A stretch of DNA of 33,284 nt from an uncultured Campylobacterales bacterium (GCA_903885085.1 CAISHH010000130.1:1-33284); one strand, 5' to 3'. Counted from the stretch's first letter, positions 13,077 through 33,284 are shown. Notes: generated by a model not told the origin, from the sequence alone. Numbers and translations: made by a program.

Positions 13077-15065
13077 TTATTTTTGCGATTTTATTAAGTA
13101 TTCCGTCACTGCCAAAGCAGCTTTATACTGCGTGTCACACTCTTTTTGCAAGGCAGTTTTTGGCTGAGTCGCTTTAAATCCACCATCATTTGCAATAAGC
13201 ACTCCTTCATCATTAAATCCGCAGTGAAGTCTGCTCTTATCTAAAAGATTTGTTCCTATGGCTGTATATTTTGCATTTGAAAGTGTAAGATTATACAGAG
13301 TTGGGAAGATGTCCTTATCTGAACCTGCCACTTTCATATCTGCTCCATCCATTTTATGCTTCAAAGTAGGTGGCAAATAGAGATAAAAAGGAATTCGTTT
13401 CGTTTGCGTATAATAATCATCATAATGCATAGCGCCTTCAACAGTGTTGTTATCGCCCGTAATGGCTACAACGGTGTTATCTTTAAGCGGTGAAGATTTG
13501 ATAGCATCCATAAACTGTCCAACCATATCTAGCGCATACTGATAATCCTGAAATCTTTGATGATTCAAAGCAAGATCGCCGACAAGATGTTTTTTCAGAT
13601 CATCTGAAAATGTCAAATTCTTACTCGGATAATTCACATCCAACTTATATGGAGGATGATTATTTGTAGTCATTACTACGATCAAGAGCGGTTTTTTTGC
13701 TTCTTTGAGTTTTGCTAACACAAACTGGTGCAGATATTTATCATATACACCCCAATCGTGTGAGACCTTTGTCTCATCTAGATGCAGTGTTGCTATGATA
13801 TTAGCTTTACCATACACATGGTCAAACCCTTGGCGAGCGAAAAATGCTCCCACATTTCTCCAAGAAAGATCTCCGCCATAGATAAACATCGTTTCATATC
13901 CGGCTTTTTGGTATACCTTTGCACTTGCCTGAGAAAAAGAGGTGTTAAGATAGCTACTTTGTCCAAAAGGAGTAGAGTTTGGACGTGCTGTGATGTTAAG
14001 CATCAAAGGTTCTAAATCGACAATAGTTCCATTTGAAGTGGAGATAAAATTTGAGAAAAGATAATCTGCATCAAAATGTTTTTTTAAAGCACGCATAATG
14101 TCAAAACTCTCACTTTGATACGCCAAAATCGGCATCCCAAAACTCTCCACAACTTGAAGCACCACATTTGGATGATTTTTTTCTAGGTATGCATCATGAG
14201 GTGTTTCATAGACGATATTTGATAAAAGATCTTTTTCATTGATCACTTTTTTACCCGTTTGCACTCTAAAAGCTTCTGGCATTTTGCCGCTGTAACCGCT
14301 CATCTTTATAAGGTCATAATTACCGCTTTTACTTTTTTCGTACTGATCCTCAGCTTTTATCATTGCATGCACAGCGTTTTGCGGGAGTTTATTTATCACA
14401 GGATCGGTTGAAACTTCTGGAATATACACAGCCAAAGGAAAAAGCCCGATAGAACCTCGCACCGCTAAAAACACGACCAAGAAAAGCGCTACAAAGAAAC
14501 CACTTTGTTTAAAAAAATGCCAATCTTTTTGTTTTACATCTTTTGTATCTTTTATAAATTTATGAATTGCGTAGTATCCAACTCCAATATATAAGGTTGT
14601 AAAAATTCCATATAACCAAAGGTTGTAATTTTTTTGTGCTATCTCAAAAAGTGCTTTTGTATCATCATCAAAAACACCAAATACCATCAAAGTAAGGTGA
14701 TCGCCAAAAAATGAAAAGTAGCTAACATCTGTCATAATAAGTGCAGAAAGAATTACAAAGATCAGAAAAAAGTAAAACTTAAAAAAGCTATTTACAAGGG
14801 TGTTTAAAAACCGAAGCCGAAAAATCCACAAAAGAAAAAGTACAAGTACGGGCATAGCAAAGGTGTAGCCCAAAGCACTTACATCAAGACGAAAACCTAA
14901 AAAAAATGCATCAAAAAGCTCTGTTGCACTGTATTTTGCATCCATGCCATAACGTACAAAAAAGTAAACGCGAACCAAGGTTAACATCAATAAAAAAAGA
15001 AGTTCGACCTTCAAAAACAGCTTCAACTGATGAAGCAAAAATGAGAAATGTTGAGTTTTATTCAT
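13077..15065 (-). CDS. LTA synthase / MdoB-like phosphoglycerol (or phosphoethanolamine) transferase
   Basis: 662 residues from ATG 15065 (MNKTQHFSF). Five or so N-terminal transmembrane helices (to about residue 215) are followed by a periplasmic alkaline-phosphatase-fold sulfatase domain: VVLQVVESFGMP (first metal site), STSNGTIVDLEPLML (region of the nucleophilic Thr), FIYGGDLSW, TTNNHPPY and VVAITGDNNT (second metal site with DN). This is the COG1368 family, which moves phosphoglycerol or related head groups from phospholipid to a glycan; in Gram-negatives the acceptor may be periplasmic glucan or LPS. The frame is open up to 15137, but the extension includes no plausible ribosome site. 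Upstream of msbA in the same direction. Substrate uncertain. Confidence 0.82.
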   Translation of the reverse strand: MNKTQHFSFLLHQLKLFLKVELLFLLMLTLVRVYFFVRYGMDAKYSATELFDAFFLGFRLDVSALGYTFAMPVLVLFLLWIFRLRFLNTLVNSFFKFYFFLIFVILSALIMTDVSYFSFFGDHLTLMVFGVFDDDTKALFEIAQKNYNLWLYGIFTTLYIGVGYYAIHKFIKDTKDVKQKDWHFFKQSGFFVALFLVVFLAVRGSIGLFPLAVYIPEVSTDPVINKLPQNAVHAMIKAEDQYEKSKSGNYDLIKMSGYSGKMPEAFRVQTGKKVINEKDLLSNIVYETPHDAYLEKNHPNVVLQVVESFGMPILAYQSESFDIMRALKKHFDADYLFSNFISTSNGTIVDLEPLMLNITARPNSTPFGQSSYLNTSFSQASAKVYQKAGYETMFIYGGDLSWRNVGAFFARQGFDHVYGKANIIATLHLDETKVSHDWGVYDKYLHQFVLAKLKEAKKPLLIVVMTTNNHPPYKLDVNYPSKNLTFSDDLKKHLVGDLALNHQRFQDYQYALDMVGQFMDAIKSSPLKDNTVVAITGDNNTVEGAMHYDDYYTQTKRIPFYLYLPPTLKHKMDGADMKVAGSDKDIFPTLYNLTLSNAKYTAIGTNLLDKSRLHCGFNDEGVLIANDGGFKATQPKTALQKECDTQYKAALAVTEYLIKSQK

Positions 15066-15092
15066 ACGCAATTCTATCCTAAAGATGATTTG

Positions 15093-15104
15093 CTTACATG
15101 TAAG
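15093..15104. repeat. CTTACATGTAAG palindrome, perfect copy, intergenic
   Basis: The only perfect copy that lies between genes: it is in the 100-base divergent gap between the MdoB-like gene and the antitoxin gene, 28 bases upstream of the former start. Confidence 0.85.
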
Positions 15105-15165
15105 CGATTTAAAAATTTTATCTGAATTTAGATACAATTTTACGAATATAGTGCAAAGGATTACG

Positions 15166-20063: not shown

Positions 20064-21185
20064 TTAAGCTCGTATATAATTTAAATTTTCCAAAATAGTA
20101 TAAAGTTTTTCAAACTGCTTTTCACTATCAAACATCTCTTTTGCCTTTAGCTTTCCTGCTTGGGCAAGGTTGTGTTTTAAACTTTCATCTTTAGCTAAAA
20201 GCTCTATTTTTTTTGCCAAATCACCACTATTTCCTTGCTCAAACAAAAGCCCATTTTTTGCCTCATCTATGATCTCAAGAGGTCCAGCGTTGTTGGTGCC
20301 TATGGTACAGATTTCACATGCCATCGCTTCTATAAGCACCAAACCAAAAGTCTCTCTATCTGTTGCTAACACCAGACAATCAAAAATCTGCATCAGTTTT
20401 TGGGCTTCTCGTGTAAACCCGCTAAAAATGATCTTATCTTCTAGATGATCTTTTTTGATGCCATCTTTTAAACTCTCCAGATAACGCTCATTCATCGCAT
20501 GTCCAACGATAAGTGCTTGTACATGTAAGCCCTCCCCGAGAAGTTTCTTCACCGCATCTATCACTAGATACTGCCCTTTTCCCTCTTCGATACGTCCAAC
20601 GATTCCAACCGTAAAAGCATCGCTTAGTCCATATTGCTTTTTGAGAGTTTCTTTTTCTTCGTCTGTTGCTAGCTCGGGCATCTCTGCACCCATATAAAGC
20701 ACTTCCACTTTTGGACAGATATCTTGAGGAACGAAACGCTCGATCTGCTCTTTTACCTGATGCGTCACAGCCAGCATCATATTCATATTTTTATAGAGCC
20801 ATCGATGATAAAAATCATCTTTAAAACGGGTCATCGTCATGTTTCTTGTCTGAACTAGTTTTGGCTTACATGTAGAGAGTTTTTTTGCTAGTACCGCTAC
20901 GGGGATATCTTTTGTCCAGTGCAAATGAACGATATCGATTTTATTTTTATCTATGATGCGGGCTAATCTTTTTGCGCTCAAAAAAGAGGAGATCGTTGAG
21001 GATCTTTTTATCTTTTCATATCTGTATGAACTGTTTTTGTAATACTGTTCAAGTTTTCCGTTCACATTTATAACACTTATAACATCTGTTTTTTTATGCA
21101 AAAATTGTGAAGCTCTGACCATATAAAGTTCAAGCCCTCCTAAATCCTGGGAGAGACAGAGTTCTAAAATCTTTTTATTTTGCAT
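20064..21185 (-). CDS. Family GT4 glycosyltransferase
   Basis: 373 residues with GT-B fold signs: N-terminal LSQDLGGLELYMVRASQFL (glycine-rich acceptor loop), HLHWTKDIPVAVLAKKL, and in the C-terminal domain VGIVGRIEEGKGQ, IIFSGFTREAQ and the nucleotide-sugar site EAMACEICTIGTNNAGPLEI. GT4 enzymes are retaining transferases common in LPS core and O-chain synthesis. ATG 21185 overlaps the end of the broken GT9 gene by 11 bases, so they share a transcript. Two near copies of the ACATGTA palindrome (20519-20528, read LHVQ; 20865-20876) lie inside. Confidence 0.92.
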   Translation of the reverse strand: MQNKKILELCLSQDLGGLELYMVRASQFLHKKTDVISVINVNGKLEQYYKNSSYRYEKIKRSSTISSFLSAKRLARIIDKNKIDIVHLHWTKDIPVAVLAKKLSTCKPKLVQTRNMTMTRFKDDFYHRWLYKNMNMMLAVTHQVKEQIERFVPQDICPKVEVLYMGAEMPELATDEEKETLKKQYGLSDAFTVGIVGRIEEGKGQYLVIDAVKKLLGEGLHVQALIVGHAMNERYLESLKDGIKKDHLEDKIIFSGFTREAQKLMQIFDCLVLATDRETFGLVLIEAMACEICTIGTNNAGPLEIIDEAKNGLLFEQGNSGDLAKKIELLAKDESLKHNLAQAGKLKAKEMFDSEKQFEKLYTILENLNYIRA

Positions 21186-22204
21186 AGATTTTATCTATAA
21201 GTGCAACCGTAGAGAGATATACACTTTCTATATTCGGACTTGTATGGTCGGGATTAAAAACACAGTCATGTTTTCCGTCCCGCGGCCAATATCTAAAAGC
21301 TCCTGTCATGAAAAATATCCCTACTGTCGGTGTTTCAACTGCAATCGCCATATTTCTAAGACCTGTATCATTTGCAATAACACATTTGCTGTTAGATAAA
21401 AACTGCATTGCTTCATCTAAAGGCATCGCTTTTTGAAGAAGAACATTTGTTCTTTCTTTCAATGATTCATATAAATCTAAAAACTTTTCACTTGCATTTA
21501 CGCCCTGTAAGATTATATGTTTGTCACTTGGATATCTATCAGAAAGTTTTTCAATCAAACTTTTAAACTTCTCCTGCTCCCAACATTTAAAGTTTGCAGA
21601 TGCACCTGCGAAATAAACAATCTGATTGACAACATTTTTCGGATACTTCTCTTCAAATCCATATCTTAAAGGAGCATTGTTTTTATAGCCAAGCATATTT
21701 AACATATGCTGTACAGAATCGGCTTCTAAGACATATTCACTTCTTAATGTAGCCATATCATAAAAGTATCTTCTTATTGATCTATACGGATACCCCACTT
21801 TTAATTTAGCCCCTGAAAGAAACGTGATCCATAATGATAAAGTACTGTCAGTAAGATCAAAAATAATATCTTGTTGTTTTAATGTTTTTGCTTGTCTTAT
21901 TCTGTAAAAAAGTCCCGTTTTTTTTACTTTTGTCTTTAGGACAAACCTTATCCATTACATGAATTTCATCGACGAGGTCTTGCGGCAGACCGTACACTGC
22001 ACTGCTGTTGACGCTAAGAGTGATCTTTGCATTAGGGAAAAATTCCCTCATACCTATCAAAAAAGGACGAATATTCATAAAGTCACCAATTGCCGCATGT
22101 CGTATTACTGCAATATTTTTTATATCTTCTGGATTTTTGTCTTTTAAATATACTTTGGCTTTTTTTGAAGCAAATGCACTCACTGGTCTAAAGTTTAATC
22201 TCAT
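21175..22204 (-). pseudogene. GT9 heptosyltransferase-like gene, frameshifted at an A8 tract
   Basis: Two frames make one protein. The upstream frame from ATG 22204 (AAAGGTG before it) gives IKNIAVIRHAAIGDFMNIRP, the GT9 N-terminus, and runs into nonsense after PKDKSKKN. Removing one base from the eight T (A on the minus strand) at 21918-21925 restores PKDKSKKTGLFYRIRQ, then QQDIIFDLTDSTLSL and on to VGYPYRSIRRYF, NQIVYFAGASANFKCWEQEKF, CVIANDTGLRNMAIAVETPTVG. Intact it would have about 342 residues and add heptose or a similar sugar to the LPS core. Whether this is true decay, phase variation by slippage, or a base-calling error in a homopolymer cannot be told from one sequence. Confidence 0.85.
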
Positions 22205-23814: not shown

Positions 23815-25213
23815 ATGCTCTTCAACTCCTACTCATTCATCTTCGCATTTTTACCACTAACCTTTTTTATCTACTTTTATCTCAACTCAAAAAGATTGAC
23901 GGTCGCGGCTAAAGGGTTTTTAGTCTTTGCTTCACTCTTTTTTTATAGTTATTGGAATATTGTTTATCTTCCTCTTATCTTAGGGAGTATTTTATTTAAC
24001 TTCATGGTGGGAAGTGGGTTAAGTAAAGAGAGCAAATTTTCTAAGAAGTCTGTTTTAATATTTGGTATTGTTGCCAATGTTGCTTTGCTTGGATATTTTA
24101 AATATAGTGACTTTTTTATAACAAATTTCAATCTCGCGATGGGCTTATACCCAAAGGGCACTTCGCATGTAGAGCTTTTACATCTCTTGCTTCCTCTAGG
24201 TATCTCATTTTTTACTTTCACACAAATAGCATTTTTAGTAGATGCCTACAAAGGAAAAGTAAAAGAGTATGACTTTTTAAACTATGCACTGTTTGTGACT
24301 TTCTTTCCTCACCTTCTTGCCGGACCTATCATCCATCATGCCGATATGATGCCGCAGTTTGCTTCACGCTGGAATATGGCTATTCGTTATAGAAATGTAG
24401 CAGCCGGTCTGTTTTTATTTTCCATAGGGCTTTTTAAAAAGGTAGTGATTGCTGATACCTTTGCCACTTGGGCAAATAATGGATTTGATGTCGCAACCTC
24501 ACTTAATCTCATCGAAGCATGGGCAACAAGTCTAAGCTATACCTTTCAGCTCTACTTTGACTTCTCGGGCTATACCGAATATGGCAATCGGTGTGAGTTT
24601 GATGTTAAACATCAAGCTTCCTGCAAACTTTAACTCGCCCTATAAAGCAAAAGATATTCAAGACTTTTGGAGAAGATGGCATATTACTCTTTCTAAGTTT
24701 TTAAGAGATTATATTTATATACCTCTTGGAGGTAATCGAGTCTCTAGTTATCGTAACTCTTTTAATCTTTTTAGTGTTTTTCTCATCGGTGGGCTTTGGC
24801 ATGGAGCGAGTTGGATGTTTGTTCTTTGGGGAGCCTTGCATGGTGTGGCAATGGTGATACACCGCATCTGGAAAGATATGGGCTTTAAGATGAACAGTTT
24901 ATTAGCATGGTTTATTACTTTTAACTTCATTAACATCACTTGGGTCTTCTTTAGAGCTAAGCATTGGGATGATGCTTTGAAGGTTTTGGGTGGGATGAGT
25001 TCATTTGGAAGTTTTTCATTTTCTTTATTCAACAACGATATTTATTGGCAACTCATAGTTATGCTTATTTTAGTTGTGACGCTTAAAAACTCAATGCAAA
25101 AACTGGAAGGCTTTAAACTTAACACGCTACATTTAGTCTTCAGCATAAGTATACTTTTAATAGCACTATCAGTTCAAAATAGTGTATCTGAATTTTTGTA
25201 TTTTAATTTTTAG
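23815..25213 (+). pseudogene. MBOAT O-acyltransferase (AlgI/DltB-like), frameshifted
   Basis: The first frame (ATG 23815) gives typical AlgI N-terminal sequence: LFNSYSFIFAFLPLTFFIYF, LPLGISFFTFTQIAFLVDAY, FFPHLLAGPIIHHADMMPQF, YTFQLYFDFSGYT, then ends wrongly. Reading GAATATGG at 24577-24584 as GATATGG, one A less, restores GYTDMAIGVSLMLNIKLP, NFWRRWHITLS-like QDFWRRWHITLSKFLRDY and the active-site His in GLWHGASWMFVLWGALHG. Repaired length is about 465 residues, normal for the family. MBOAT proteins bring acyl (usually acetyl) groups across the membrane for glycan O-acylation, with the SGNH protein encoded next. It also holds the insert YPKGTSHV, from the long repeat form at 24145-24172. 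Confidence 0.88.
24145..24172 (+). repeat. Long form of the palindrome family, encoding PKGTSHV
   Basis: Half-sites TTATA (24145-24149) and TGTAG (24168-24172) flank 18 bases, CCCAAAGGGCACTTCGCA. In the MBOAT frame this reads YPKGTSHV between GL and ELLHLLLPLG, where AlgI relatives, as I recall them, have only a short hydrophilic link. The 18 bases match the minus-strand copy at 26623-26650 at 17 of 18 positions. Confidence 0.8.
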
Positions 25214-25220
25214 GATTCTT

Positions 25221-26267
25221 ATGACAGCAAAAAGATATCTCCAAATATTCTTCACTATATTACTACTCTTTATACTCTTTCATTTTACGATATGGCATTT
25301 GTATACAAAACAATTATTTCAAAATAATGATAATACTCATGTTGGTGATTTAGGAAGAATGTCATATCATAATGACTCTTTAATTTTTAAAGAAAATAGA
25401 GTAAATTTGCCAAAAAAACATATTGACTTTACAAAAATTGAAAAAGTAGATGTTATCACAATTGGAGACTCGTTTTCTAATGGAGGAGCGGGAGGATTAA
25501 ATCCATTTTACCAAGACTATATTGCTTCATTTTATAATTTTAAAGTATTAAATTTAGAACCTTCAAAGGAAGGATGGGTAGAATCAATCTTGCGTTTAAA
25601 TAGCAGTGGAATTTTAGATAAACTACATCCAAAAGTGATTATTTTAGAATCTATAGAAAGGGGTTGTGTTGACCGATTGTCAAAAAAAATCGATTGGAAT
25701 CTCACCGCAGATGAAAAAACAGTTATTCAAGATATGAAAAAAAGATATCCAACTCAAAAAGAAAAAACATCATTTATAAACAATTTGAACTATAACGCTT
25801 TGCTTTACAATCTTTTATACAAATTTAACGACCATGCCTACTCTTCCAAAGTCTATATCGCTCCAATCTCAAAACAGCTCTTTTCATCTCAAAATCCTAA
25901 GGAACTACTTTTTTATTTTGAAGATATTAAGAATCTGAAAAAATCAAACCAAAAATCGATCGCCTTACTCAATGAAAATCTTAATCATCTCCAAGAGATA
26001 TTAAAGAAGAAAAACATACACCTATATTTTATGCCAACACCCGATAAATATGATATTTATTCCAAATACATCATCAATAATCAATATGAGCAAAGCCACT
26101 TCTTTGAATTGCTACGTGGTCTAAAAAAAGAGTATACCTTCATAGATACAAAAGCTATTATAAAACAACTTATAGACGACAATGAAAAAGATGTTTACTA
26201 TCCTGATGATACACACTGGAGCTATAAAGCGAGTGCAAAAATATTTGAAGAGACTAAATTTAACTAA
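25221..26267 (+). CDS. SGNH-hydrolase-like, AlgJ/AlgX-type protein for glycan O-acetylation
   Basis: 348 residues from ATG 25221 (AGGA six bases upstream; the frame is open to 25182). N-terminal membrane anchor (YLQIFFTILLLFILFHFTIW), then a periplasmic domain with VITIGDSFSNG (putative nucleophile Ser84) and near the C-terminus YPDDTHWSYKAS (Asp329, His332), the GDS and DxxH parts of the catalytic triad. Proteins of this type act with an MBOAT partner to transfer acetyl groups to exported polysaccharide, as AlgJ/AlgX do for alginate. Follows the MBOAT gene by seven bases and meets the minus-strand GT9 gene tail to tail with a four-base overlap. Visibly A/T-rich. Confidence 0.83.
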   Translation: MTAKRYLQIFFTILLLFILFHFTIWHLYTKQLFQNNDNTHVGDLGRMSYHNDSLIFKENRVNLPKKHIDFTKIEKVDVITIGDSFSNGGAGGLNPFYQDYIASFYNFKVLNLEPSKEGWVESILRLNSSGILDKLHPKVIILESIERGCVDRLSKKIDWNLTADEKTVIQDMKKRYPTQKEKTSFINNLNYNALLYNLLYKFNDHAYSSKVYIAPISKQLFSSQNPKELLFYFEDIKNLKKSNQKSIALLNENLNHLQEILKKKNIHLYFMPTPDKYDIYSKYIINNQYEQSHFFELLRGLKKEYTFIDTKAIIKQLIDDNEKDVYYPDDTHWSYKASAKIFEETKFN

Positions 26268-27247
26268 AGCAGCTGAATTGTTTTAGCTACTTCCTCAAAC
26301 ATCTCACTTCTTTTCCTCTCATCATGAGGGATCATATAGTGTTTTTGCATTGATTCGTCGCTAATACTTTTCCAGCGTTTTCCACTCGCAAAAAGTGAGT
26401 CTCCAAAGAAGGTCATCGTTGGAGTTCCGACAAGTGCGGCTAAATGATACGTGCCTGTAGAGGTTGAGATGAAGAGTTTGAAGTTGCTTATAAGTTTTGC
26501 AAAATTGACAAGCCCATCTTTTGAGATATAAAACACGACATCCGCGTTTTGAAGTGCATTTTTGCAATATTCATAAAGAGTTTGCTCATCAGGTCCAAAG
26601 GTCATCACGACTTGATAACTGTTTACATGCGAAGTACCCTTTGGGTGTAAGGCATTTTTTACCAACTCGATATACTCATCAATACTCCAGTTAGCATCAC
26701 TTGAACCGCCAAATCCCGGGTGAAAAGCGATCACCTCTTTTTTGATGCTATTCTCTTTGCAAAAACTCTCATACATCTCTTGCGCATCATCAAACTTTAA
26801 AAGCGGCTTTTCAAAATGCAAATCCATCTTAGGAAATAACACTTTTGCAAGCTCTAAATTGTACTCAAACTCCGTCATCTTCACTTCACTGCGTCTTTGC
26901 TTGACTCTCTTGGTGTAAAAGATTTGGGCTATCTTTGTAGCCGGTGCTATGCGCTTTGAAATGCCCGCTAAAAACTGCGCAATTGCTACACGGGTGTTTG
27001 AAAAGAGGGTAAGTGAAACATCTGCTTTGGCTTTGCGAAGCTTTTGTGCAAGCTCCCACACCGAGCTCTTGCCATCATCGACAATCACCTCATCGATAAA
27101 ATCACACGCACGAGCCAAACTCTCATTTAATGGTGCCACGCAGACTATGATGTGGTTACGCGGATCATACTGTTTTAAAACCTTACATGTAGGCAATGCT
27201 GTGATAAAATCTCCGAGTTTATCGGTACGAACAACAAGAATGTTCAA
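26264..27247 (-). CDS. GT9 (ADP-heptose:LPS heptosyltransferase-like) glycosyltransferase
   Basis: 327 residues starting at TTG 27247. N-terminal MNILVVRTDKLGDFITALPT with the glycosyl-acceptor Asp, VAFHPGFGGSSDANWS-like VIAFHPGFGGSSDANWS, and LFISTSTGTYHLAALVGTPT, the nucleotide-binding end, are those of family GT9. It would add heptose or a relative to the LPS core. Start codon and the ligase stop overlap as TTGA, so the gene is coupled to the ligase. It carries the long repeat form (26623-26650), inserting HPKGTSHV between two predicted strands (ALHPKGTSHVNSYQVVMTF). Intact, unlike the other GT9 gene in the window. Confidence 0.92.
   Translation of the reverse strand: MNILVVRTDKLGDFITALPTCKVLKQYDPRNHIIVCVAPLNESLARACDFIDEVIVDDGKSSVWELAQKLRKAKADVSLTLFSNTRVAIAQFLAGISKRIAPATKIAQIFYTKRVKQRRSEVKMTEFEYNLELAKVLFPKMDLHFEKPLLKFDDAQEMYESFCKENSIKKEVIAFHPGFGGSSDANWSIDEYIELVKNALHPKGTSHVNSYQVVMTFGPDEQTLYEYCKNALQNADVVFYISKDGLVNFAKLISNFKLFISTSTGTYHLAALVGTPTMTFFGDSLFASGKRWKSISDESMQKHYMIPHDERKRSEMFEEVAKTIQLL
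26623..26650 (-). repeat. Long form of the palindrome family, perfect half-sites, encoding PKGTSHV
   Basis: TTACA (26623-26627), 18 bases TGCGAAGTACCCTTTGGG, TGTAA (26646-26650): exactly the two halves of TTACATGTAA separated by 18 bases. Read on the minus strand it encodes HPKGTSHV in the GT9 protein. 18 is a multiple of three, so the reading frame is kept. Confidence 0.85.
27182..27193. repeat. CTTACATGTAAG family, 10/12 copy
   Basis: CTTACATGTAGG near the start of the GT9 gene, read as PTCKV, so not in the LHV frame. Other 10-11/12 copies on the right side are at 30154-30165 and 30850-30861, each read as YMY. Confidence 0.6.
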
Positions 27248-28053
27248 TCTTTTCTCACATGCATAAATGAGGCAAATCTTGGTTTGCCCTTCTTTGTAAA
27301 GCCAAAATATTTAAAAGTGATGATGGAACCAAGTGCTGGAGGATTTTTTCTATTCTCTTGACTAAAACCAGATCCTATGAAAAGGTGTGTACCGTTTTCA
27401 AGTTCCACTTCCAGACTTCCCATCAAGCCACTATTCTTGCCAACGCCTTTTTTATAGCCGATAACTTTTCCTTCCATATCTTGAGCCAGTTTGACCTTTA
27501 AAACAGAATCGCTTCTGCCATCAAAATAACCTCTTGAGCCCTCTTTTATGACCGCTCCTTCTCCCCGTTTTTTCACCACTTCATGCAAAAATACCTTCAA
27601 CTCTTTTGAATTGTGACAGATTTTTTGTTCTACGATTCTTACATGTAAGAGGTGATGTGCATCAATGTAATCTTGCGCTTTTTGAAGTCGTTGCGTGAAA
27701 TTTCCCTCAGCGTTTGGCACTTCAAAGATATTGTAAGTGATCTCTTTCCATTTTTCGCTTGGCTTGTCATCCATCACAATCGACTGGATATTTTCAAAAT
27801 CCGCGCGCGCAGTCCAAAGCTCGCCATCAAGTGCAAACGGAGGTAGATCTTTTATAAACCATGCAGGAGCGTTTATAGGTTTATTTTGACGAGAGAGAAG
27901 TTGTTTTCCATCCCAATATCCACGGATGCCATCAAGTTTCTCAGACATCATCCAGCCGGAGATATTTTGATCAGTGTAGATATTTGGTTTTTGCAGAGTT
28001 AATGCGCTTACATGTAAGGCAAATAGAAATAAAACTGCAAAAACCTTGAACAT
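27244..28053 (-). CDS. Secreted ATP-dependent DNA ligase (LigE-type)
   Basis: 269 residues. Signal peptide MFKVFAVLFLFALHVSALT, then a minimal adenylation plus OB-fold ligase: motif I SEKLDGIRG with AMP-binding Lys39, motif III FALDGELW, motif IV GEGAVIK, motif V VLKVKL, and an OB domain (MEGKVIGYKKGVGKNSGLMG, FIGSGFS, FKYFGFT). Such small ligases with an export signal are found in Gram-negative bacteria, and a periplasmic role in joining nicks in incoming or extracellular DNA has been proposed. The gene lies two bases after ugd and overlaps the GT9 gene by four bases, an unexpected place among LPS genes. Two perfect palindrome copies lie within, one coding LHVS in the signal peptide. Confidence 0.9.
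   Translation of the reverse strand: MFKVFAVLFLFALHVSALTLQKPNIYTDQNISGWMMSEKLDGIRGYWDGKQLLSRQNKPINAPAWFIKDLPPFALDGELWTARADFENIQSIVMDDKPSEKWKEITYNIFEVPNAEGNFTQRLQKAQDYIDAHHLLHVRIVEQKICHNSKELKVFLHEVVKKRGEGAVIKEGSRGYFDGRSDSVLKVKLAQDMEGKVIGYKKGVGKNSGLMGSLEVELENGTHLFIGSGFSQENRKNPPALGSIITFKYFGFTKKGKPRFASFMHVRKD
27638..27649. repeat. CTTACATGTAAG palindrome, perfect copy
   Basis: Inside the ligase gene, read on the minus strand as LHVR (HHLLHVRIVEQ). Confidence 0.85.
28007..28018. repeat. CTTACATGTAAG palindrome, perfect copy
   Basis: Inside the signal-peptide coding part of the ligase gene, read on the minus strand as LHVS at residues 13-16. Confidence 0.85.
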
Positions 28054-28055
28054 TT

Positions 28056-29381
28056 TTAATTCACACCGATCTGGAAATATTCAAATCCCATCTTCGCCAT
28101 TTTCTCTTTTGCAAACTGATTACGTCCATCAAAAAATATTGGAGTTTTGAGTAATTTTTTTATCTCATCAAAATCAGGACTTCTAAACTCTTGCCATTCG
28201 GTTACAAGGATTACCGCGTCAGCGTCTTTGAGAGCATCATATTTACTATCGACATAACTTACTTTATCATTGCCTTTAAGATAATGAGTCTGGGCTTCAT
28301 GACGTGCTTTTGGGTCATACGCTATAATATTTGCGCCACGTGAAGTGAGCTCGTTGATGATAGTAATCGCACTTGCCTCGCGCATATCATCCGTCTCAGG
28401 CTTAAAGCTCAGTCCCCAAACTCCAAAAGTTTTGCCCTCTAAGTTTTCGCCAAATCTTGTGATCACTTTATTTGAGATCACATATTTTTGTGCATAGTTG
28501 ACAGCTTCAACAGCATCCAAGATACGAGGTGTATAGCCAAAATCTTTTGCGGTTTTTGCTAATGCTTGCACATCTTTTGGAAAACAGCTTCCACCATATC
28601 CGCAACCCGGATAGATAAAACTGTAACCGATGCGGCTGTCGCTTCCTATGCCGTTTCTTACTTTGTTGATGTCCGCTCCCACGCGCTCACAAATCTGGCT
28701 CATCTCATTCATAAAAGAAATTTTCGTCGCAAGCATCGCGTTTGCCGCGTATTTTGTCATCTCTGCTGATTTGATATCCATCGCTATAAATCTATCATGA
28801 TGCTTCATAAAAGGAGCGTAGAGTTCACGCATAACCTCTAATGCTTTTTCACTCTCCGCACCGATAACCACGCGGTCAGGATGCATAAAGTCATTGATTG
28901 CAGCGCCCTCTTTTAAAAACTCAGGATTACTAACAACATCAAACGTAATACTAACACCGCGTTTGTCAAGCTCTTCTTGAATGGTCGCTCTTACTTTTTC
29001 AGCCGTTCCTACAGGAACAGTCGATTTGTCCACGACGACGATATAATCTTGCATACTTTGCCCAATTTTTTTAGCAACAGCTAAAACATATTGAAGATCG
29101 GCACTTCCATCTTGACCCATCGGAGTTCCCACGGCGATAAAAGAGATAAGCGATGAAGCAATCGCTTCAGTCGCGTTTGTCGTGAACTTTAATGTCCCTT
29201 TTTTATAGTTTTCAAGCGTCATATCCTCTAAACCCGGTTCATAAATCGGGATGATTCCCTTTTCTAGTTTTGCTATTTTGTTTTCATCTATGTCGACGCA
29301 AGTGACTTTGTTTCCCATCTGAGCAAAACATACACCGCTTACTAATCCAACATAACCTGTTCCGATAACTGATATTTTCAT
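28056..29381 (-). CDS. ugd: UDP-glucose 6-dehydrogenase
   Basis: Oxidises UDP-glucose to UDP-glucuronate with two NAD+, supplying glucuronate-type sugars for LPS or capsule. 441 residues. NAD site [26 protein letters not shown]-like [43 protein letters not shown], and the catalytic cysteine in [17 protein letters not shown]-terminal [16 protein letters not shown] and [11 protein letters not shown] 29381 has AGGA eight bases upstream. It heads a minus-strand operon with the secreted ligase and the GT9 gene and is divergent from the lipoprotein gene. Confidence 0.96.
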
Positions 29382-29462: not shown

Positions 29463-30182
29463 ATGAAACATATAATTTTAACTCTCTTCTTATTTTTATT
29501 TCTTGGTTGCAGTCAAACTAGTCTGCAAACAGCGTGGACAAGGACTAAAGATGCTTCCTACTCAGCAGTAACAGATCCCGTCACTTGGGCTCCTATGGCC
29601 GTGGGCATTACACTTTATGCGACAAACACAGATCAGAGAATATCAAAAGATATCATGAATCATCCTCCCTTTTATCTGGCAAATGATGATATGTATAGAG
29701 AGATCAATGGAGCCGAAACTTATCTTACGGCTCTCATGATTGATGATAATGATTCAGTAACAAAACTCAAACGTGTTGCCGTAGAAGCTACTGGCTTTGC
29801 CGTTGCAAGAACTGTGACAGATACATTGAGTTACTCAATTGAAAAAGAAAATCCTTCACATACAAGAGATGATGCCATCGGCTCGCATCATGCCATTGAC
29901 ACATTTACGGGTTCTGCTATGAACAGACGCAATGTCGACCAGCTTGATATCCCAGAGTGGGGGAAATATACCCTTAATGGTATTAGTTACTTCACAGCAT
30001 CTGCTAGTGCTTTTGCCCGTGTACAAGAGGGTGGACACTCGCTCGGAGATCAATTCATACATGCATCTATAGGCAATTTTCTAGGTCTCTTTATTCATGA
30101 TCTTTTTATGAAAGAGGACACACATATAGAACTCTCAGTTGCAAATGATGCCGCTTACATGTACACCAACTGGAAATTTTAA
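29463..30182 (+). CDS. Lipoprotein with a PAP2-like phosphatase domain
   Basis: 239 residues with a lipobox signal (ILTLFLFLFLGCSQ; Cys16 would be lipidated). The body carries the three motifs of PAP2 phosphatases in altered form: EKENPSHTRDD for KxxxxxxRP, IGSHHA for PSGH, and ARVQEGGHSLGDQ for SRxxxxxHxxxD, with the catalytic His and Asp of the third motif present. Hydrophobic stretches flank them. It may act on a lipid phosphate, for example polyprenyl or phosphatidylglycerol phosphate, at the membrane surface; activity with the changed first motif is uncertain. First gene of a plus-strand cluster with the glycosidase-like gene, a classical PAP2 gene and an MdoB-like gene. Confidence 0.75.
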   Translation: MKHIILTLFLFLFLGCSQTSLQTAWTRTKDASYSAVTDPVTWAPMAVGITLYATNTDQRISKDIMNHPPFYLANDDMYREINGAETYLTALMIDDNDSVTKLKRVAVEATGFAVARTVTDTLSYSIEKENPSHTRDDAIGSHHAIDTFTGSAMNRRNVDQLDIPEWGKYTLNGISYFTASASAFARVQEGGHSLGDQFIHASIGNFLGLFIHDLFMKEDTHIELSVANDAAYMYTNWKF

Positions 30183-30203
30183 ACGAGTGGCTATAAAACT
30201 CAA

Positions 30204-31469
30204 ATGGATAAAACTTTGAAAGAACCTTTTATCTGGGATAAATTCTCAGATCAGCCTTATCAACTCAAAGATAGAAAATTTAAAAAGATGATGCGTCGGC
30301 GTGAGCTAGTATCAAATCTCAAAACCTTTTTTATCGCTCTTTTCATCCTTCCACTTTCAATGTTGCTCATCCCTTTTGTGCCTCGAAAAAATGTGGACAG
30401 TGATAACTTTTTTGCGATGAGTGTCAATCTTGAGAAAGAGCCTTCTATGACTCCTGAACTTTTAGAGGAGTTGGGAGTTGATCATATTTTAGTGCGCTGT
30501 AAGCTTTGGGAGATGGATAAACTTCAAGAACTATACGATTTTATCCTTTCTTGCCAAGCAAAAGAGGTTACACTAAACATCCTTCAAGACCGCGAACATA
30601 TTGAAGATCTTGAGCTTTTAAAGAGAGATCTTCGCACGATATTTTCAATTCCTCAAATCAGAAGATTTCAGATCGGTTCTACTATCAATCGCGCGAAATG
30701 GGGTTTTTTCAGCGTGGATGAATACAACAAGTTTTACAAAGTAGCTTACGATTTGAAGCTTCATGAGTTTCCCGATATTATTCTCATCGGCAGTGGAGTG
30801 ATCGACTTTGAGTACCACTTTACAGCGCATACGCTTTTTAACTTTTTCCCTTACATGTACGACGGCGTTGCCTCACTTTTATATGTCGATAGACGCGGAG
30901 CACCTGAAAATACACAGATGGGATTTAATCTTTTAGATAAGATCGCACTGCTTAGTACGATGGTCTCTCTGAGCCCAAAAAGTAGGAACCGCCTTTACAT
31001 CACAGAGACAAACTGGCCCATCTCAAACACCGCACCATATGCACCCACAAGTGAACATGAGTGTGTGGATGAAGAGAGTTATGCGAACTTTTTAGTACGC
31101 TATTATCTTCTCGCATTTGCTTCACAACAAGTCGATGCCGTGCTCTGGCATCAGCTCATCGCTCCGGGATACGGACTCATAGACAATCGCAAGGAAGTGA
31201 GAAAACGTAGCGCATTTTATGCGTTTAAAACAATGCTTGTATTTTTAAAAGGTTCACAATTTTTACGCCTTGATATAAAAAGAGGTTATCATATTCTCCA
31301 ATGTCTTAAAGAAAACAAACTCATACAAGTTCACTGGTCTTTGAATGAACAAATCATTAAAAATGAAGACTACTTTGATGCTTATTCTCGAGATGGAGAG
31401 CTCATAACAAGCAATGAAATAAAAATTTTTAATGCCCCTATTTATTTACAAATCAAGGATAAGTTATAA
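30204..31469 (+). CDS. Membrane-anchored glycoside-hydrolase-like (clan GH-A type) protein
   Basis: 421 residues. A short cytoplasmic N-terminus rich in Lys/Arg, one transmembrane helix (LKTFFIALFILPLSMLLIPF), then a domain that looks like a TIM barrel: alternating strands and helices such as HILVRCKLWEMDKLQELYDF, FQIGSTINRAKWGFFS, PDIILIGSGVIDFEYHF, LYITETNWPISN and AVLWHQLIAPGYGL. TETNWP resembles the strand-7 nucleophile Glu of GH-A enzymes such as GH39; the usual acid/base Asn-Glu pair after strand 4 is not clear (STINRAKWG). It could trim or bind periplasmic glycan. I do not recognise a characterised homologue. Lies between two PAP2-type genes. Confidence 0.55.
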   Translation: MDKTLKEPFIWDKFSDQPYQLKDRKFKKMMRRRELVSNLKTFFIALFILPLSMLLIPFVPRKNVDSDNFFAMSVNLEKEPSMTPELLEELGVDHILVRCKLWEMDKLQELYDFILSCQAKEVTLNILQDREHIEDLELLKRDLRTIFSIPQIRRFQIGSTINRAKWGFFSVDEYNKFYKVAYDLKLHEFPDIILIGSGVIDFEYHFTAHTLFNFFPYMYDGVASLLYVDRRGAPENTQMGFNLLDKIALLSTMVSLSPKSRNRLYITETNWPISNTAPYAPTSEHECVDEESYANFLVRYYLLAFASQQVDAVLWHQLIAPGYGLIDNRKEVRKRSAFYAFKTMLVFLKGSQFLRLDIKRGYHILQCLKENKLIQVHWSLNEQIIKNEDYFDAYSRDGELITSNEIKIFNAPIYLQIKDKL

Positions 31470-31470
31470 T
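31465..31470 (+). promoter_or_regulatory. TATAAT seven bases before the PAP2 phosphatase start codon
   Basis: TATAAT overlaps the stop of the upstream gene and ends seven bases before ATG 31478; the nearest AAGGA is 18 bases away, too far to act. Could give a leaderless internal transcript, but the match is partly forced by the Leu-stop codons TTA TAA. Confidence 0.3.
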
Positions 31471-31477
31471 TTCATCT

Positions 31478-32152
31478 ATGAATAAAAAAATAATCAATGT
31501 CCCGCTGTATGTATGGATAGCATTTCTCCTCACTTCACTCATTTTTGTCCTTTTCCCGCAGATCGATATTTTTGTAAGCTCTCTTTTTTACTCTAAAGAA
31601 AGCGGTTTCTTTACAAATAACACTTGGTATGAACCAATTTTATACAATTCGATACAACCTGTTGTCACTCTAGCCATCATTTTGCCTATGCTTGTATGGC
31701 TTTATAATATTGCAGCAAAAAAAGATCTCTATCATGTAAATAGAAAAGTGATTCTCTATCTTTTGTTAATCATCGCTATTGGTCCAGGTCTCATCGTGAA
31801 CAGTACTCTTAAAGATCATTGGGGGCGCGCTCGCCCAGCTGAGACAATACTATTTGGAGGAACGAAAGAGTTCACTCCAGCTTTTATCATCAGCGATCAA
31901 GGCGGTTACTCTTTTAGCTGTGGTCACGCTGCTGGAGCATTTTTTCTCATCGCTCTTGCTCTGCTTGCTCAAAAAAGACGTATGTTATGGATGAGTCTCG
32001 CAGTTGGTTATGGGATTGCTATCAGCTATATTCGTATCGCCGCAGGTGGACACTTTTTTAGCGATACCGTAGTCTCATTTTTCATCGTTTATATCACGAC
32101 ACTCATCTTTTATGGACTCTTTTTCAAGGAAAAAACTAATGAAATTTCGTAA
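31478..32152 (+). CDS. PAP2-family membrane phosphatase
   Basis: 224 residues, about five transmembrane helices. All three PAP2 motifs are intact: KDHWGRARP, SFSCGHAAG, and SYIRIAAGGHFFSD. Relatives remove phosphate from lipid A (LpxE), undecaprenyl diphosphate or phosphatidylglycerol phosphate at the outer face of the inner membrane. The gene overlaps the following MdoB-like gene by 14 bases; a phosphatase next to a transferase that turns phosphatidylglycerol into diacylglycerol fits either lipid recycling or lipid A modification. The specific substrate is not visible in sequence. Confidence 0.9.
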   Translation: MNKKIINVPLYVWIAFLLTSLIFVLFPQIDIFVSSLFYSKESGFFTNNTWYEPILYNSIQPVVTLAIILPMLVWLYNIAAKKDLYHVNRKVILYLLLIIAIGPGLIVNSTLKDHWGRARPAETILFGGTKEFTPAFIISDQGGYSFSCGHAAGAFFLIALALLAQKRRMLWMSLAVGYGIAISYIRIAAGGHFFSDTVVSFFIVYITTLIFYGLFFKEKTNEIS

Positions 32153-33284
32153 TCAACTCACACAGATTCTTTCACTCATTCTTTTTAGCTTCGTTGTTTT
32201 GATGGCAATCAGGCTCTCTCTTTATGAATTTTATAAAACTGATTTTTCTAACCTCACTACTAGTGAGTTTTATGCATCACTTTTGATGGGATTTCGTGTT
32301 GACATGATTACTATTTTCACGTTTTCCTCAGTCTTTGTCCTTTTGCTTCTCTTTGTCAAATCGCCAAGAACAAGAGGACTTATCGGGATTGTATGGGCGC
32401 TCATCTTAACGACTATTTTTATTCTCAGTTTCAGCGATGTTCTTTACTATGACTATATCCATAGACATATGTCAAATGAGCTATTTAACCTCGGTAGTGA
32501 TACCGACATTATCACTGGAATGGCATTTGGTTCTATGCTTCCTTATACGCTAGGCGCATTTATTTTATCTGCTATATTTTTATATGTCGTTTATAAAATT
32601 TTTACACATAGACCAAGACATTTTATCTCAGGTAAACAACTCTTCATCACGACTTTAGTTGTTGTCTTAGTTCTTTTTATTGGAATACGCAACAACTTTT
32701 CAGGTAAAGGTTTTGGTACAAGTGATGCCTATGCTGTTGATAAAGTAAGCAGTGGAAACCTCGCGCTTAACAGATTTTTTACCATGTATAGAACCGCTAA
32801 ATCTCCTGCAAAACACCATCTTATGAAACTAGATAAAGCAATAGAGATCACACGTTCACAACTTGCCTCACCAAATACACCTTTTCTGGATGACAAATAT
32901 CCACTCGAACGTGAATATAAAGCAAAAGAAACCCCAAAATACAATGTCGTTATCGTACTCTTAGAATCTTTTGGAGCTGAACATTTGGATGGTTTTACTC
33001 ACTACAAAGAGTTGGGTATCACACCATATTTTAAACAACTGAGCAATGAAGGGCTGAAATTCACTAACTTTTATTCAAACGGTTATCGCTCTATTTTTGG
33101 AATCACCTCTATCTTTACAGGTATCACGATCCCTTCAGGATTCGAGTATCTTGGACATGGACTTGAGCTCTCAAATCTCAGCTATCTGGGCAGAGTTGCA
33201 AAACAAAACGGTTACTCAACCCTCTCGATGCAAGCGGCGAACAAGCGTTCATATCGAGTCGATGCAGTGAGTGGACTTGCAGGA
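32139..33284 (+). CDS. Second LTA synthase / MdoB-like transferase (3' end outside window)
   Basis: ATG 32139, with AAGGA eight bases upstream, opens a frame of 382 codons to the right edge. Four to five N-terminal helices (LTQILSLILFSFVVLMAIRL through LFITTLVVVLVLFIGI) are followed by the start of a sulfatase-type domain: NVVIVLLESFGAEHL (first metal site, Glu), YFKQLSNEGLKFTNFYSNG, RSIFGITSIFTG (region of the catalytic Thr/Ser) and NGYSTLSMQAAN. Same family as the gene at 13077-15065 but clearly a different member. Probably a phosphoglycerol or phosphoethanolamine transferase acting in the periplasm. Last gene of the plus-strand cluster in view. Confidence 0.85.
   Translation, partial: MKFRNQLTQILSLILFSFVVLMAIRLSLYEFYKTDFSNLTTSEFYASLLMGFRVDMITIFTFSSVFVLLLLFVKSPRTRGLIGIVWALILTTIFILSFSDVLYYDYIHRHMSNELFNLGSDTDIITGMAFGSMLPYTLGAFILSAIFLYVVYKIFTHRPRHFISGKQLFITTLVVVLVLFIGIRNNFSGKGFGTSDAYAVDKVSSGNLALNRFFTMYRTAKSPAKHHLMKLDKAIEITRSQLASPNTPFLDDKYPLEREYKAKETPKYNVVIVLLESFGAEHLDGFTHYKELGITPYFKQLSNEGLKFTNFYSNGYRSIFGITSIFTGITIPSGFEYLGHGLELSNLSYLGRVAKQNGYSTLSMQAANKRSYRVDAVSGLAG

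Follow-up and report, generated by a model that had tools for sequence, protein, structure and literature searches.

The closest described counterparts of the genes considered here are the lpxE-eptA operon of Capnocytophaga canimorsus (PMC4730577) and LpxE, LpxF and EptA of Helicobacter pylori (PMC3245313). We analysed a cluster of four genes at the end of a 33,284-nucleotide contig (C130; 'the window' hereafter) from the 2.34 Mb genome, in 172 contigs, of an uncultured Campylobacterales bacterium (GCA_903885085.1, CAISHH010000130.1:1-33284). The cluster encodes a PAP2-superfamily lipoprotein (gene 1), a glycosidase-like protein (gene 2), a PAP2 phosphatase (gene 3) and an MdoB-like transferase (gene 4). 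Sulfidic waters and vents are habitats in which free-living Campylobacterota abound; no paper on lipooligosaccharide (LOS) decoration in them was found in the literature searched, and a search on Sulfurimonas lipopolysaccharide (LPS) and MdoB-type lipid A modification returned nothing useful. Gene 2 belongs to a conserved but unnamed family of LPS loci that is predicted to fold like a glycosidase yet has an incomplete catalytic pair, and it is the more novel part of a cassette whose other members are optional.

Gene 2 and its place beside waaF

The four genes lie on the plus strand from position 29463 up to the contig end and encode 239, 421, 224 and > 380 amino acids respectively. Only 21 nt separate genes 1 and 2 and 8 nt genes 2 and 3, while genes 3 and 4 overlap, an operon-like layout. 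The original observation of four plus-strand genes at 29463-33284 holds, with the correction that gene 4 is cut by the end of the window, which is also the contig end. The missing part lies on a second contig of this genome, C126, which shares the final ~270 bases apart from a few differences in the protein, completes gene 4 and continues into waaF (heptosyltransferase II); the assembly break at gene 4 was probably caused by strain variation. The closest named DNA is a contig (L078) of a Sulfurimonadaceae metagenome-assembled genome, with 95% identity for gene 2. The window represents a LOS locus, since it also carries genes for an MsbA-like exporter, glycosyltransferase-like open reading frames (ORFs), an LPS-kinase-like gene and a heptosyltransferase-family gene.

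Across the order, the usual gene after gene 2 is waaF, either directly or beyond a PAP2/MdoB insert, and hldE, gmhA, waaC, htrB and LPS kinase genes lie near it in relatives. The cluster is more than a chance arrangement because the order of genes 2-3-4 recurs in many genomes; far from being scattered in close relatives, the series gene 2-PAP2-MdoB-waaF persists in the genus and also in many genomes of Sulfurimonas. Among 80 complete loci of the Sulfurimonas family, the interval between gene 2 and waaF contained a PAP2 gene in 29, an MdoB-type gene in 20 and both in 18 (Fisher 1e-8), so that PAP2 occurred without MdoB in 11 of its 29 loci. PAP2 presence changed at least 12 times on the gene 2 tree, which suggests that PAP2 is part of a cassette that comes and goes. 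Gene 2 and waaF form a near-constant core in this family, and genes 3, 4 and 1 are optional, tending to co-occur. The four genes had been proposed to act as one system, which was too strong: gene 2 is near-constant with or without the others, PAP2 and MdoB are variable and gene 1 is sporadic. The cluster is better described as a module of LOS-core biosynthesis than as a four-gene system standing by itself.

Homologues of gene 2 (30204..31469, plus strand) were found in 52 of the 200 sampled genomes of the order, including every listed genome of the Sulfurimonas family, and in 36 of 249 genomes of the phylum; a search of plasmids yielded none. The window protein had no match in Pfam or NCBIfam, none of 20 diverse family members showed a convincing Pfam match, and the family profile returned only noise against PDB sequences. 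Its AlphaFold model (pLDDT 91, pTM 0.91) consists of eight alternating strands and helices followed by a C-terminal beta domain, and the top Foldseek matches were to glycoside hydrolase families GH39 (5jvk, E 3.5e-16, TM 0.64), GH30 and GH51, all of which belong to clan GH-A. The protein is thus predicted, from this model, to be an orphan clan GH-A-like (beta/alpha)8 barrel, and this structure prediction, which had been proposed as a check, bears out the 'glycosidase-like' label. A GH39 relative suitable for aligning catalytic residues was sought across the phylum, and none was found in 200 genomes.

Strand 7 of the model (residues 264-268) ends at E268, the place of the nucleophile, and this residue is invariant in 69 family and 41 order-wide sequences. 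In clan GH-A enzymes the acid/base Glu is part of an Asn-Glu at the end of strand 4. The stretch behind strand 4 of the model (154-157) reads G-S/N/T-T/A/V-I-N-R and, as judged from the strand limits, lacks this Glu; no Glu or Asp occurred at positions 159/160 among the letters counted in the same two sequence sets. A conserved site of basic character, perhaps able to bind sugars that bear phosphate or carboxylate, is suggested by the invariant residues N162, R163, K165, W166, D201, E203, D229, W315 and H316. A single hydrophobic segment (about residues 35-62) behind a basic N-terminus implies, from the charge distribution, an inner-membrane anchor that would leave the barrel in the periplasm, and an N-terminal WDxxSDQP motif, on the predicted cytosolic side, is nearly invariant. 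In one relative (L053:9284-10933, minus strand) a YrbL-type kinase is fused to the N-terminus of the barrel. The same type of kinase is an unfused neighbour in L042, L045, L047, L050 and L073.

Phosphatases, transferase and neighbouring genes

Gene 3 (31478..32152, plus strand) encodes an integral-membrane PAP2 phosphatase (PF01569, 63.7 bits), as originally labelled, in which the motifs KxxxxxxRP, SGH and RxxxxxHxxxD are all present, their residues (K112/R119-P120, S147/G149-H150 and R186/H192/D196) being invariant in 15 sequences. Its nearest curated family is LpxF (NF045633), matched with 117.6 bits over residues 16-215 of 224, and a weak match to PgpB (26 bits) was also obtained. PAP2 paralogues from the same genome were tested against LpxF and gave no match. 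Three similar PAP2 paralogues are found on separate contigs of this genome (L002, L003 and L004), each overlapping a near-identical gene of 189 amino acids.

EptA was detected in 22 of 61 family genomes and in none of the seven genus members, and orthologues of gene 3 (E below 1e-60) in 21 of the 61, with no genome containing both (P 9e-6). Counted by genus, nine of 18 genera had gene 3 orthologues, six had EptA and none had both (P 0.009). In EptA genomes a lipid A-phosphatase-like PAP2 gene follows eptA, located beside motAB-fliP in two of three inspected cases, and in several other genera a gene 3 orthologue occupies the motAB-fliP place, in many cases adjoined by genes for an LPG-synthase-TM protein and a PMT_2 transferase of ArnT-like type. 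The eptA-PAP2, gene 3-ArnT-like and PAP2-MdoB arrangements point to interchangeable sets of a phosphatase and a decorating transferase acting on LOS, and suggest that sister genera solve the step of removing a phosphate and adding a group with alternative transferases (EptA, ArnT-like or MdoB-like). Separate PAP2 and MdoB-type pairs were also seen in relatives (L222:7820-10478 and L213:7761-11059); one adjoins a two-component system and the other has a dual-specificity phosphatase gene between its members.

Gene 4 (32139..>33284, plus strand) is a truncated MdoB/LtaS-type transferase of the alkaline phosphatase superfamily, whose ORF opens at 32112, homologues making the start at 32139 likelier. 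The window copy matched PF00884 as its only Pfam family, and EptA_B_N (PF08019) was found neither in it nor in its full-length relative nor in the seven genus genomes searched. That relative (L078) scored 65 bits against LtaS, 55.0 bits against OpgB (PRK03776, cut-off 574) and 24.1 bits against PRK12363 (cut-off 572), all far below the curated cut-offs. When gene 4 is aligned with VP1736 and LtaS, the Glu, Ser/Thr, His and Asp-His that are catalytic in this family can be located, and in alignment A5 all of these positions are invariant. The PF00884 match and the LtaS/OpgB likeness of the relative agree with the MdoB-like label, and by analogy with OpgB and LtaS the donor would be phosphatidylglycerol (PG). 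A further MdoB/LtaS-like gene (13077-15137, minus strand; 686 amino acids) adjoins the gene for the MsbA-like lipid A exporter.

Gene 1 (29463..30182, plus strand) has a lipobox (LGC/S) and no Pfam match of its own; its relatives match PAP2 (PF01569) weakly (13.8-17.5 bits, E 0.0035-0.05), and a distant homologue (L239) lies above the cut-off of that family (57.1 bits). The residues of motifs C2 (GSxHA, here GSHHA) and C3 (RxxxxxHxxxD) are invariant, with C1 degenerate and reduced to Lys, so that 'PAP2 lipoprotein' is probably a correct description. A profile comparison of genes 1 and 3 agreed in the C2-C3 region with a probability of only 66%, and the AlphaFold model, built from five sequences, reached pLDDT 54 and was set aside. 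The gene is sporadic, occurring in 2 of 200 order genomes by single-sequence search and in 11 of 61 family genomes by profile search. Full-length relatives stand beside a gene 2 homologue in three genus genomes and in L086, L096, L101 and L103; genus members that have the gene carry it before gene 2, and in other genera it is not adjacent to gene 2. Most relatives have either no gene at its position or a second MdoB-like one, which is homologous to gene 4 from end to end. In one relative (L240:5956-8087), the gene for a gene-1-like PAP2 protein neighbours one for the lipid A deacylase LpxR (PF09982, 154 bits). That no curated family matches gene 3 better than LpxF, that gene 3 and EptA exclude one another, that the genes sit in a LOS-core locus and that a gene 1 homologue lies beside LpxR all favour lipid A or the inner core as the likely target of the cassette.

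Divergent from gene 1 lies ugd, encoding a UDP-glucose dehydrogenase-like protein (28056..29381, minus strand), which shows a statistical association with the form of the cluster that contains PAP2 (Fisher 1.6e-8). We rejected the idea that PAP2 is strictly tied to ugd and MdoB over and above common descent, despite the raw Fisher value of 1e-8; the supported contrasts on the gene 2 tree number five and cannot reach significance, so shared ancestry may account for the PAP2/MdoB/ugd linkage. An ATP-dependent DNA ligase gene (27244-28053, minus strand; NCBIfam PRK09125, 343.8 bits), whose product has a signal-like N-terminus, and a heptosyltransferase-family (GT9) gene of the LOS locus (26264..27247, minus strand) follow. 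The ligase gene thus sits inside the LOS locus, and it is syntenic with ugd and the heptosyltransferase gene in many Sulfurimonas genomes. Two further ORFs appear in two parts: a heptosyltransferase-like ORF (21175-22204, minus strand; 207 and 115 amino acids), for which a frameshift or assembly error is possible, and an MBOAT-type acyltransferase-like ORF (23815-25213, plus strand; overlapping parts of 272 and 218 amino acids), possibly frameshifted.

Proposed role and competing explanations

We consider it fairly probable that the genes constitute a variable LOS/LPS-core cassette that remodels lipid A or the inner core at the periplasmic side of the inner membrane. Genomic context, the way gene 2 is predicted to fold and the co-occurrence patterns are documented above; the activities that follow are inferred. 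The LpxF-like gene 3 product would strip a phosphate from lipid A or the core, and gene 4 would next transfer a phospho-headgroup, probably phosphoglycerol from PG, to the freed or a neighbouring hydroxyl, the two together replacing the PAP2/EptA pair of sister genera. The gene 2 product, anchored through a single helix, would work on the inner core, which is rich in phosphate and built with the help of waaF; it could be a glycosidase or transglycosidase that relies on a non-canonical acid, or else a factor that binds sugars. Gene 1 may contribute to this pathway, as an optional member, a lipoprotein phosphatase of the outer membrane. A bolder proposition, which we hold to be rather unlikely, is that gene 2 founds an LPS-core enzyme class (a tethered GH-A barrel without the canonical acid/base, performing transglycosidation or trimming of phosphorylated heptose/Kdo) and that LpxF-type plus MdoB-type phosphoglycerol decoration of lipid A or core is a third alternative to phosphoethanolamine and aminosugar/uronic acid.

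Several points weigh against LOS remodelling. Gene 3, at 117.6 bits, falls far under the NF045633 cut-off of 400, the donor and acceptor of gene 4 are not readable from its sequence, and the exclusion between EptA and gene 3 is partly confounded with genus. Independent pairs on the gene 2 tree gave five supported contrasts, of which the informative ones ran nearly always in the expected direction without being significant.

The likeness of gene 4 to OpgB/LtaS and the GH-A fold of gene 2 would also fit modification of a periplasmic glucan, with gene 4 as an OpgB-like phosphoglycerol transferase, gene 2 trimming the glucan and the PAP2 proteins recycling lipid. However, MdoG/OpgG (PF04349), recovered in the Escherichia coli positive control, was absent from all 61 family genomes, which makes OpgG-dependent glucans unlikely targets (cyclic glucans made without OpgG fall outside this test), and the genes are embedded in a LOS-core locus. 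We therefore rejected this reading as very improbable: of the original idea of a compact set trimming and decorating a periplasmic glycan or LPS, the LPS half is supported by the LOS-core locus and the place next to waaF, and the glucan half is not; the compartment first predicted, the outer face of the inner membrane, was also well chosen. Lipid supply, in which a PgpB-like phosphatidylglycerophosphatase (gene 3) makes the PG that gene 4 spends on the LOS core, would explain why PAP2 and MdoB-type genes pair repeatedly and is consistent with the weak PgpB match. It seems to us quite unlikely, given that LpxF matched gene 3 far better, that PAP2 stands without MdoB in 11 of 29 loci, and that gene 3 orthologues adjoin an ArnT-like transferase or occupy the eptA place, neither partner using PG. 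Gene 2 might, finally, be unrelated to genes 3 and 4, a pseudo-glycosidase serving assembly or as a scaffold of the core locus in which the PAP2 and MdoB genes are merely parked; its occurrence with waaF alone in many loci, the lack of a carboxylate where strand 4 would be expected to supply the acid/base (in 69 sequences of the family and 41 from across the order) and the kinase fusion in L053 speak for this. The invariant active-site-like residues (E268, N162, R163, K165, W166, D201, E203, W315 and H316) argue instead for a kept site, and PAP2 and MdoB insert repeatedly at exactly the gene 2-waaF spot, so that we give this explanation a small chance.

Comparison with known systems

Set beside the LpxE-EptA pair of the lipid A 1-position, the cassette shares a PAP2 phosphatase adjacent to an alkaline-phosphatase-superfamily transferase in an LPS context, and sister genera carry a true eptA-PAP2 pair. 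It differs in that the PAP2 protein is LpxF-like, the transferase is of MdoB/LtaS type without EptA_B_N, and the pair lies in a LOS-core locus with a GH-like protein. Among curated families, the lipid A 4'-phosphatase LpxF, known from H. pylori, comes closest to gene 3 and aligns with almost all of it, at a score far short of the family cut-off. With OpgB/MdoB and LtaS, gene 4 shares a transmembrane region, the PF00884 domain and the aligned catalytic Glu, Ser/Thr, His and Asp-His, whereas the family has no OpgG and the scores of the gene 4 relative are far under the curated cut-offs. Gene 2 resembles clan GH-A enzymes (GH39/GH30/GH51; 5jvk, 3kl3 and 6d25) in its predicted barrel, side beta domain and strand-7 Glu, but differs from them in lacking a sequence match and the strand-4 Glu, and in its N-terminal membrane anchor and LOS-locus context. 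The locus thereby exposes a conserved, unnamed LPS-core protein family that is testable in culturable Sulfurimonas or Arcobacter relatives, and its phosphatase-transferase half is a variation on the known LpxE-EptA type of pair with a different transferase.

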